From the NCBI GenBank assembly GCA_004335835.1, contig RWJK01001238.1, positions 17,924 to 81,923 of the forward strand: 64,000 bases of DNA, given 5' to 3'. A program made the position numbers and the translations under genes. Shown here one piece after another: positions 59 to 61,490 of this stretch. Positions within the stretch are counted from its first letter, which is position 1. Every line of letters starts with the position of its first letter. This DNA comes from Scenedesmus sp. ARA3 (lineage: Eukaryota > Chlorophyta > Chlorophyceae > Sphaeropleales > Scenedesmaceae). Below the pieces are notes generated by a model that worked only from the letters and a program-made list of their open reading frames with translations, ran no database searches and was not told the DNA's origin.

Positions 59-3000
59 GTGATCGTGGCCACCATCGCGTTTGGCATGGGCATCAACAAG
101 CCTGACGTGCGCTTCGTGGTGCACTACAGCCTGCCCAAGAGCCTGGAGGGGTGCGTGCTGGTGCATATGTGTTGGCTGTTACATGTGCCGTGACATGTCT
201 TGTTACATTTGTTGTTTGTGGTGTACTACAGCCTGCCCAAGAGCCTGGAGGGGTGCGTGCCGGTGCAGCTTGCGGCTTCGATGCAATTGTTAGCAGGGAG
301 GCTGCTGGTGACTGTCGAGAGCTGCTGTCCGGGCGTCCGATTTGGTCATTGCTGCAACATCAATGCGCAGCCTAAGCCATAGATTGTAGGGAGTGTGGTT
401 GGCAGCTGCGAGGCTTGAGAGGAGCGGCAAGTGTGAGCACATCTGCTGCACTGCCGCCCCTGTTGCCGGCAGGACATCCTTCCTACTGCCACCCGCACGT
501 CTCATCCCTGTTGCCTTTCGTCCTCTTTCCACGCGTGCTGCATACCCGCAGCTATCACCAGGAGACGGGCCGTGGCGGGCGTGATGGTGCGTCTGCCGAA
601 TGCGTGGTGTTCTGTATTGATCCTAACATGCACTGCCTGCCCCTCGCTACGTCGCATTCCGCGATGCAGCTATCACCAGGAGACGGGCCGCGGCGGGCGT
701 GACGGGGCGTCTGCCGAGTGTGTGCTGTTCTACAGCTACGCGGACGCGCTCAAGGGGCGGCACATGATCGCGACCAGCGCGCAGGAGAACGGCACCGCGC
801 CGCAGGTGGTGGAGGCAAACCTGGACGCACTCAACGCCATGGTTAGTGAGATCAGCATAAACATCTGTGGTGAATGTGCTGGAAGCTACATTATGTATGC
901 ATCGTGGGTGTGCAGCTGGTTTTGGTGTTGGTGCGGTGCCTTGTTTATGTTGTCAACTCACGGGCGGCACATGATCGCCACCAGCGCACAGGAGAGCGGC
1001 ACAGCAGCCAGCAGGTCATGAAGGCAAACCTGGACGCGCTCAACGCCATGGTGCGCTGCTTTGGATGTTATGTCATATGTTTCATTGTGTGTTTCAATGC
1101 TAGCTCCGTTCGGAGGGTGTGTCATGTGTTGCATTGTGTGTGGCTGCACCGCTCAGCAGCCAGCAGGTGGTGGCGGCAAAGCAAACCTGGACCCACTCAA
1201 CGTCATGGTGCGCGAGTCCTAACTAGATTGGTTATGGTTTGGGGCTTCCAGGTGCTGAGTTCGTGTTGGTAGTGACAGGTTGTGGCTGCACTACAGCCGC
1301 AGCCTACACCAGCCGCAGGTGTCCCTGAATAACGCTGCTGCTGCCCCTGCTGGTGTAACTGGCCACAGGTTAACTACGCGGAGTCCAGTGTTGAGTGCCG
1401 CCGCATGCTGCTGATGCACCACTTTGGCGAGACCAGCTTTGGGCCGGAGCAGTGCAGGCAGACGTGTGACGTGTGCCAGGCCAACAAGGCGGCAGACAGG
1501 AAGGTGGAAGGTGAGCGCAGTGCGGGAACCTGGCTGCAAAGCAGGTTGTGTGGTTCAACCGGCCAGATACTTGCGTGTGCTTCTTCACTTGCTGGCTGTA
1601 TGATCTGTGCTTGAGAGGTGCACGCACGGCCCTGCACGGCTTGTGCGCAGCCACACTCTGCTGCAGCTGGCAGTCGAAATTTGTTTGCGCCGCTCAAACC
1701 GGCTGCATGCATATGTGCATGCGCGCGCTGGCTACCCCAGCAGGACCACGCGCTAGGACACCTACAAGAAGATGTGCTAGCACACGCCGCAGCTCTGTGC
1801 GCCCACCTGCCTAATGGTTTGTGCTCTTGCTCGCCTGCCGTACTCTACAGAGGCTGACTTCACTGAGGCGGCCAAGGTGCTGCTGGCCTGGTCAGCTGGT
1901 TGCTGAGGTCAATGGCACACCCACATGTATACTAAGCTTATAACTGCCTTGCTGCTCCCTGTTTGCAGAGGCCGACTTCACTGAGGCAGCCAAGGTGCTG
2001 CTGGGCCTGATTTCAGAGCTCAATGCCCGCACGGGGCGGGCCCATGGAGCCACCTTCATCCTGGAACTGTTTAGGGGCAGCCCTACAGCACGCAACAGGG
2101 GCCTGGTGGGTTTACAATTTAGGGGTCGTGCATGAGAAGCGCCTGCATGTTGAGCACTAGATCTAGTGCTCTGCATCTCGCTTCTTCGTTGTTACTCTCA
2201 TCGTGCCACTTTCATCCTGGAGCTGCTCAGCGGGAGCTTCACGGTACGCAACAGGGACCTGGTGGGTGGCGGGTGCTGAGGGCAGGCACTTCGTGGGCTT
2301 ATGGTTGCGTTGGTATGCCGTTCTTGCAGGAAAGCACCTGCGGTGGCGAATTGGTGCGGTATGTTGCGCACTAGATCCCGTGCTATCACTCCCCGGCCAA
2401 TGTTCACTCATCCCCCCGTGATCTTGCTTCCTTCTCTCACGTACATGCGCATTTCATGCCACGTGATTCCTGCTGCTGGCCGCACTGCAGGCTGCTGCCT
2501 TCAAGTTGGATACCTTATCCGGCTTTGGCGCAGCCTCCAAGCCCCCCCTCAGCCTGCCCCGTGGCGACCAGGAGCGGCTGCTGCGGCGGCTGGAGCTGCT
2601 GCGGCTGCTGCGGCAGGAGACGGCGCGCCAGGAGACGTTCCAGAGCATCAGCAGCGTCATCCAAGTTGACCAGGTGCGCTGGCACTTGCCGCTGCTGGTG
2701 GGTGTGTGTTCTCTGCAGCTGCTGGTGCATATGTGTGTGCTTCCTGCGCGCGTGTCGGCTAGGAAATGTCAATGGCACGCCTGCTGCCTTGCAATGCACG
2801 CACGGCCAGTCAGGCTTTGGGTGGCTTTGGGGTGCATCTTCTCGACTTCCATAACTGCCGCCATGGTATCTGCGCTGACGCTGGCACGCTTTTCGAAAAC
2901 TGCTGCTGCTGCTGCTGCTGCAGGCGAAGGCCTGGGAGCTGCAGCAGGGCCGGATGCAGGTCAAGATGGCAGCAGTGCCAGCCAAGGCAGGCAGGGGCAA

Positions 3001-61439: not shown

Positions 61440-61490
61440 CCATCGCTTGAGCAGCTGCTAGGAGACAGCTGGACAGGGCACAGGTTAACA
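61440..61490 (+). repeat. Post-stop echo of the poly-Gln gene
   Basis: cgcttgagcagctgctagga then gacagctggacagggcacag copies the terminal coding sequence gcttgaggagctgctggggg, acagtgcacagctttagggg (61349-61390). A shorter partial copy (ggtacagtgggacagtgtac, agctgtaggggg) lies at 61395-61425. Confidence 0.85.

Follow-up and report, generated by a model that had tools for sequence, protein, structure and literature searches.

Exon-edge echoes in introns and beyond stop codons of a green alga, possible scars of repair between diverged alleles

Introner elements are one route to new introns, and in plants breaks can be repaired by one-sided invasion, which is homologous on one side and end-joined on the other. 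Repair of the latter kind would yield a copied edge joined to a resident edge, and in this it resembles the structures reported here. According to the available part of the source, a potato RdRp gene carries a duplicated segment that crosses an intron-exon boundary, with the exonic piece left non-coding (PMC4974935). The accessible portions of two further reports describe short tandem duplications formed at breaks by fill-in and end joining (PMC8355091) and heterologous recombination (Ht-REC), in which repair between non-identical sequences may leave duplications (PMC5783719). Here we describe exon-edge echoes, partial and diverged copies of exon edges lying in the adjoining intron or past the stop codon, in the green alga Scenedesmus sp. 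ARA3. They were noticed in a first-pass annotation of 64,000 nucleotides (nt) of contig RWJK01001238.1 (assembly GCA_004335835.1, forward-strand positions 17,924 to 81,923); this whole stretch is called the window. The exon-edge echoes are confirmed as real; they occur genome-wide and are mostly tandem duplications where conserved coding sequence meets diverged non-coding sequence. Among the open-access literature matches listed, no title concerned exon-edge echoes in green algae; the nearest published case met was the potato duplication.

The genome examined comprises 87.3 Mb in 1567 contigs. Eighteen genes were modelled by homology, three in the window and 15 in loci of 5–10 kb chosen by contig number; the homologs, mostly proteins of Tetradesmus obliquus, came from one ordinary and two chimeric protein searches. 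From the closeness of these proteins we take the alga to be T. obliquus itself or something very close to it. A purpose-written spliced protein-to-DNA aligner placed 115 introns, 93 of which passed a filter on identity beside both junctions, while 22 were dropped. One more was removed after the filter, a curated intron of a RecQ gene whose upstream ‘exon’ (985-1050) is itself an echo, and the final set holds 92. The mean intron length of the modelled genes is 444 nt; the published mean for T. obliquus is 462 bp (PMC5966456, available part). In the edge test, the first or last 60 nt of each exon was compared with the adjoining intron, with microsatellites masked and a score cut-off of 20. A self-trained hidden Markov model gene finder was used only for picking protein fragments and for a weak ab initio check of duplication clusters.

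The first-pass annotation had claimed that donor-side echoes follow the real exon and acceptor-side echoes precede it, without exception by eye. In the 18 genes, an echo on the expected side was found at 48 of 184 exon edges versus one of 143 on the wrong side, so the echoes do not fall equally on both sides and the rule is indeed strict. The sole wrong-side hit came from a 65-nt exon, almost entirely spanned by its 60-nt query; at a score of 17 or 18, wrong-side matches numbered 2 of 144. Shuffled exon-intron pairs, the control that the annotation had proposed, gave no match between exon edges and length-matched introns of other genes (0/4650). Exon edges also had no match in non-adjacent introns of the same gene (0/1068) or in their own introns read backwards (0/186), and control queries from the exon interior, 180–240 nt from the edge, gave none either (0/20). 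Echoes are present in 15 of the 18 genes and in 39 of the 92 introns (13 of 20 in the window, 26 of 72 elsewhere). Echo-bearing introns are longer than the others, with a median of 481 versus 317 nt, in line with the growth of introns that had been suggested; echo frequency is slightly higher for longer exons (p 0.045). Homologous proteins splice over nearly all echoes, which bears out the claim that the outermost copy is the one in use.

The copies are direct and close. Self-BLAST of 204 kb found 100 local direct duplications versus 2 nearby inverted matches, and few far self-matches within loci; the smallest shift was 100–139 nt in 56 of the 100. At 51 boundary clusters the copy-to-copy shift has a median of 119 nt (67–251); the cluster alignment table covers 50 of them, as the cluster at 4345-4617 of locus L004 has no single-sided alignment. 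In the masked window, 91 of 92 same-strand self-matches have copies less than 4 kb apart. The ab initio check was calibrated on 53 modelled clusters, of which 35 fitted the side rule, 2 were against it, 12 went both ways and 4 had no edge; for 47 clusters outside the modelled genes the corresponding numbers were 17, 2, 8 and 20.

These placements also bear on intron gain, by duplication of an exon segment around AGGT or by introner elements, as the origin of the copies. Duplication is an established source of new introns (PMC4974935, available part), but a duplicated exon segment would put both edges at both ends, whereas the echoes of each edge stay on its own side and exon edges match the adjoining intron only. 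For introner elements, exon edges had no match in introns of other genes (0/4650) and far self-matches within loci were few, although no search was aimed at intron-to-intron families as such. We give intron gain as an explanation very little credence.

Within the window, the edge test found 40 intronic echo copies, from position 215 to 56404, in three modelled genes; for one of these copies, 1151-1207, the segment used as reference is an echo in its own right. The annotation had spoken of at least seven genes on both strands. Homologs allowed three to be modelled, all on the plus strand. Among 14 further window clusters, judged by the ab initio model, five fit the rule (three on the minus strand), one does not and eight have no predicted edge; one of the five is the stop-edge echo of the helicase gene at 47938..56709 and one the stop edge of the uncharacterised gene at 7586..12601. 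Minus-strand genes were confirmed outside the window. The rightmost echo, claimed up to 61490, corresponds to a match between 61321-61381 and 61431-61477 with a score of 24; the open reading frame beside it was not confirmed as a gene.

The first gene encodes a RecQ-type DNA helicase:

41..5714 (+): C-terminal part of the RecQ-type DNA helicase gene, by spliced alignment to P0143 residues 634-1342
41-150, 670-907, 1369-1510, 1969-2105, 2491-2673 (+): RecQ exons 1-5 as modelled
2924-3748, 4037-4135, 4700-4844, 5208-5327, 5605-5714 (+): RecQ exons 6-10 as modelled
215..252 (+): donor-side echo of 113-150
552..613 (+): acceptor-side echo of 670-731
973..1050 (+): donor-side echo with 26 codons that match residues inside P0143 (OEZ86_009530)
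1151..1207 (+): third copy of the exon edge echoed at 973..1050 (edge test)
1851..1886 (+): acceptor-side echo of 1969-2004 (edge test)
2199..2261 (+): donor-side echo of 2043-2105 (edge test)
3789..3868 (+): donor-side echo of 3669-3748
4219..4255 (+): donor-side echo of 4099-4135 (edge test)

The segment 985-1050, included in the annotated protein, looks like an echo; the second exon would then probably have its true donor at 840. Two further copies of window 51-104, part of the first RecQ exon, lie immediately upstream of the window (G000:C898:17736-17788 and 17864-17912).

The second gene is uncharacterised; the best match of its stop-edge echo starts 198 nt beyond the stop:

7586..12601 (+): uncharacterised gene with 4 exons, by spliced alignment to all 639 residues of P0137
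8217..8255 (+): acceptor-side echo of 8339-8377 (edge test)
8750..9235 (+): three donor-side echoes of the exon edge ending at 8583 (edge test)
9856..10000 (+): two donor-side echoes of the exon edge ending at 9782 (edge test)
12757..12866 (+): stop-edge echo, a second copy of 12502-12610

The third gene, which we take to be of the DHX33/DEAH10 type from the names of homologs and from motifs, has the richest arrays. The best match of the product of this gene (47.9–56.7 kb) is the T. obliquus RNA helicase P0001:

47938..56709 (+): DHX33/DEAH10-type RNA helicase gene, 11 exons in the model, by spliced alignment to all 754 residues of P0001
47938-48044, 48364-48628, 49469-49585, 49852-50304, 50560-50615, 51067-51272 (+): helicase exons 1-6
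51724-52080, 52924-53059, 54246-54395, 54728-54892, 56487-56709 (+): helicase exons 7-11
48719..49262 (+): four donor-side echoes of the exon edge 48589-48628 (edge test)
51493..51669 (+): two acceptor-side echoes of the exon beginning at 51724 (edge test)
52145..52669 (+): five donor-side echoes of the exon edge 52024-52080 (edge test)
52817..52860 (+): one acceptor-side echo of the exon start 52925-52968 (edge test)
53124..53285 (+): two donor-side echoes of the exon edge 53011-53059, in a 113-nt unit that includes shared intron flank
53473..54145 (+): six acceptor-side echoes of the exon start 54246-54305, with two exon-edge sequence types by eye
54481..54528 (+): donor-side echo of the exon edge ending at 54395 (self-BLAST; under the edge-test threshold)
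54949..55183 (+): array of a 41-nt unit with a short copy of the donor edge 54880-54892
55471..56404 (+): seven acceptor-side echoes of the exon start 56487-56557 (edge test)
56739..56809 (+): stop-edge echo of the end of the helicase coding sequence, 56625-56694 (self-match and stop-edge test)

Exons 5-6 are uncertain because an assembly gap at 50688-50895 (208 N) takes out some helicase coding sequence. By eye, the echoes at 55471..56404 fall into two types, Gln-Val-Val and Gln-Ile-Val. Further DEAH-box helicase matches, weaker than the window gene, lie upstream of the window at G000:C898:844-5097 on its contig.

The position of the duplications within genes is highly restricted. Among the 53 local duplications inside the modelled genes, a count that still includes items measured with the echo-derived RecQ segment, 51 lie across an exon edge and 2 wholly within introns, and none is purely exonic. 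When the same units were placed at random, with introns collapsed to their echo-free length (median 277 nt), the expected fraction straddling an edge among units that are not purely exonic was 0.48, as against the observed 51 of 53 (p 3e-14); p remains 6e-5 even if purely intronic duplications were detected at an efficiency of only 0.3. The annotation had said that stop codons are duplicated as well, and 4 of 9 stop-codon edges do have an echo. Since these edges echo too, the boundary that matters seems to be the end of coding sequence, where it meets non-coding sequence, and not the splice site as such; start codons are the exception.

Ordinary tandem duplication within one chromosome is one candidate source of such copies: a unit of about 100–140 bp is duplicated across an exon edge, the outer copy is kept by selection, and the inner copy drifts together with its flanks. 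The spacing of the clusters, the directness and closeness of the copies, and units with shared intron flank, for example 53011-53289, all agree with it; a boundary-crossing tandem duplication is documented in the potato gene (PMC4974935, available part), and in the DHX33-type gene the amino-acid differences are mostly on the echo side. The excess of duplications at boundaries over the 0.48 expected does not agree with it, and neither does the way in which the copies diverge.

Differences between exons and echoes are distributed over codon positions 1, 2 and 3 as 149/98/330 (91 copies at 49 edges, one of which is the echo-derived RecQ segment, so these counts include items measured with it). 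An excess of the first position over the second is unexpected for a neutral echo. Synonymous differences account for 331 of the 577. The calculated neutral synonymous share is 0.277, and a neutral echo facing a constrained exon predicts 0.434. At edges with a single echo, whose figures are safer because copies within one array are non-independent, 107 of 178 differences are synonymous versus the predicted 0.434 (p 1e-5). Along the echo-to-echo edges of the trees, 120 differences are synonymous and 101 are not (120/221), versus the neutral share of 0.277, and only 2 of 1709 echo codons are stop codons. Simple neutral decay of duplicates does not fit these data.

Two other sources of the pattern were tried and rejected. 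Under mutational bias, taken for each base as a third-position rate twice that of second positions, single-echo edges would show 43.6 third-position differences (76 when first and second positions are combined), versus 110 seen. GC-biased codon use does contribute, because real A or T at third positions are the most divergent (0.44 and 0.31). Conversion of echoes by the exon in use would, by reasoning, leave more nonsynonymous than synonymous differences and hence gives no account of the excess.

The intron flank beside the copies was compared at 43 of the 49 edges, those with a nearest echo ending more than 3 nt from the junction being left out. Past the splice signal, similarity exceeds the 99% random level at 15 of the 43 and does not at 28, although exon identity is 0.88 at these 28. 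The claim that copies include some flank therefore holds for the 15 edges, and at the remaining 28 the flank is not above chance. In the printed alignments, exon identity of 76–97% commonly ends a few bases from the splice site, and the echo often has its own, different consensus splice site. Codon-position counts are 20/4/65 for the 15 nearest echoes with similar flank and 46/34/104 for the other 28; a sharper codon pattern with similar flank is expected if constraint preceded decay. The annotation had envisaged boundary-spanning duplications of which selection keeps only the outermost copy functional; with plain decay of the inner copies, this is not supported by the placement, the synonymous share and the often-unshared flank. 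Plain duplication within one chromosome is in our judgement unlikely, although far from negligible.

Copies with their own flanks and coding-like divergence would have the same anatomy if contigs of two diverged haplotypes or strains, overlapping by about 118 nt at exon edges, had been joined unmerged by the assembler. The UTEX 393 draft, which may be another assembly than that of the window, was made from 101-bp reads with gap filling and merging (PMC5255914). A relative, strain NREL 46B-D3, is likely diploid, with its alleles separated (PMC7955037, available part). The RecQ echo speaks against a misjoin. The T. obliquus protein P0143 (OEZ86_009530) is recorded on a contig of 4.55 Mb, longer by far than those met in the present genome. 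It includes a stretch of 26 residues that is identical to the translated echo 973-1050, in the same partly shifted frame: the first part is out of the parental frame, and the next true exon follows. Because it is translated within a protein from another T. obliquus assembly, this echo is no artefact of the present one, and persistence in an independent assembly, for which the annotation had asked for long reads, is seen through this protein for one echo only. A single array may also contain as many as seven different echo copies, the intron parts of which have diverged, and no second haplotype was identified among the best candidates scored. A misjoin is thus improbable as the general explanation.

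A second protein, P0131, contains echo copies in frame; they belong to a replication-protein gene at L004, a random locus of the same genome, where the gene product is 100% identical to P0131 (T. obliquus) over the covered part. As P0131 is identical to this genome, it may be non-independent; P0130, another T. obliquus model of the same gene, skips the echo. Internal repeats were found in 3 of 21 Tetradesmus/Scenedesmus proteins (P0131, P0139 and P0143) versus 1 of 119 other helicase homologs; for the repeat of P0139, no tie to an echo was found.

The in-frame copies of P0131 might suggest that echoes serve as alternative splice sites or exons under present coding selection. The codon-like divergence between echoes points the same way, as do the splice dinucleotides: among echoes that match as far as the junction, 39 of 41 retain GT and 25 of 28 retain AG. 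However, echo distances show no preference for multiples of three (17/18/15 for remainders 0/1/2, n=50), P0143 reads part of the RecQ echo outside the parental frame, P0130 skips the echo of the P0131 gene, and homologous proteins skip nearly all the others. Such use we regard as very improbable.

Our preferred explanation, held tentatively, is that the echoes are scars of break repair between diverged alleles of the same gene; allelic source, break, invasion and end joining are all inferred. A break would arise in an exon close to its edge, and the broken end would invade the exon of the diverged homologous copy, the other allele. Synthesis would pass the exon edge and continue for some tens of bases in the intron or 3′ region of that copy, until the strand is displaced. 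Because the two copies have lost their similarity in non-coding sequence, the new strand could not anneal to the second end and would be end-joined to it instead. The outer edge would then be that of the copied allele and remain in use, while the resident edge would be stranded in the intron as a decaying echo, together with the splice site and flank that belong to it. Coding-like divergence, a separate flank on each copy, confinement to coding edges and the side rule agree, taken together, with a join of two diverged functional gene copies that overlap by some 70–250 nt, and the likely diploid state of the related strain NREL 46B-D3 also speaks for this reading. Many copies would arise by repeated rounds or by ordinary unequal exchange within the array. 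One-sided invasion followed by end joining would place the echo on the correct side at donors, acceptors and stops alike. Purely exonic scars would be absent because repair there is clean, and purely intronic ones would be few because there is no homology to invade, as is seen.

A broader form of this proposal seems to us rather more doubtful. Recombination between deeply diverged homologous chromosomes would meet a homology cliff at the ends of coding sequence and leave the exon edge of the other allele behind, which would make it a main route of intron growth and would preserve a record of allele diversity within one assembled sequence. If so, trapped alleles would lie in about four introns in ten, and also after some stop codons.

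Residues that distinguish strains were compared with the echoes. At 4 of 14 sites where another T. obliquus protein differs from this genome, the residue of that protein is present in an echo (P0132 and P0141, which are not T. obliquus proteins, were excluded from the count); this is compatible with an allelic origin, and also with echoes that predate the strains. At one edge of the gene for P0136, two of four echoes have the Ser of another strain's protein, and the exon in use has Gly. At index 507 of the translated helicase model, the used exon encodes R, and all five echoes at 52145..52669 have the G of the ortholog.

Several observations weigh against repair between alleles. Start-codon edges, where the same process should act, have no echo (0/10). 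Window genes are nearer to neutral (114 synonymous differences out of 231), and in 48 of 57 amino-acid differences of the DHX33-type gene the rarer residue is on the echo side, as plain decay predicts. Among the 49 codon comparisons in which exon and homolog disagree, the echo sides with the exon 28 times, with the homolog 11 times and with neither 10 times. Layering of the arrays is weak: nonsynonymous change rises with distance (permutation p 0.054, Wilcoxon 0.063), with far echoes above near ones in 12 of 19 arrays, below in 4 and tied in 3, and total divergence shows no trend; the predicted deeper position of older copies is thus no more than suggested. The two echo types do not alternate significantly, likeness being greater at lag 2 than at lag 1 in 4 of 7 arrays (best p 0.06–0.08). 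Finally, protein and DNA searches identified no second haplotype in this assembly. In the whole-genome protein search the strongest DHX33-type matches lie on one contig and the others are weaker and paralog-like; a DNA search with 51700-56800 met no other copy among the best 40 candidates scored. The search with window 1-9000, again with the best 40 candidates scored, gave a single 94-nt match of 86% identity (window 55-148 to G000:C1542:86263-86356), which may be a RecQ paralog or a second copy.

Some further features were recorded in the window and at L004. At 35211-35919, six 120-nt tandem repeats lie over a long minus-strand open frame and are possibly coding repeats, not echoes. Larger duplications pair 38072-38342 with 38968-39238 (94% identity, shift 896) and 37658-37847 with 38611-38798 (79%, shift 953), in a stretch with cysteine-rich minus-strand frames. 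CAG/CTG runs are abundant throughout the window, as poly-Gln in exons and also in introns. The replication-protein gene has in one intron (L004:3756-3868) an element of about 113 nt with a (CATTA)n end, resembling a dispersed repeat of the short interspersed element (SINE) kind; among the matches listed, at least 40 near-full copies occur across the genome, nearly all 97–100% identical. An Rfam scan of the window and L004 gave no match reaching gathering scores.

If repair between alleles is the source, introns lengthen by repair errors at the end of coding similarity, not by random insertion or transposons, each echo would be the fossil of an allele, and intron growth would become testable in a laboratory alga. 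Even as plain duplications, decoy edges in 39 of 92 introns form a hard natural test of how the spliceosome chooses the outermost site. The echoes are also a hazard for annotation: two database proteins, P0143 and P0131, already hold translated echoes, automatic annotation having been misled.

Compared with the known systems, one-sided invasion is the repair route proposed here; among the open-access literature matches listed, none described it as a genome-wide footprint at coding/non-coding borders. Ht-REC differs in its large and complex rearrangements, which the accessible part of the report describes in worm and vertebrate mutants (PMC5783719). The fill-in and end-joining duplications, as far as the available part of that source goes, concern one locus, are independent of gene structure, and on their own predict neither the restriction to coding edges nor allelic divergence (PMC8355091). 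The potato gene represents, in the portion of the report at hand, a single event that made a new intron (PMC4974935), whereas in the alga boundary-crossing copies occur at dozens of loci, diverge in a coding-like manner and often do not share their flank.

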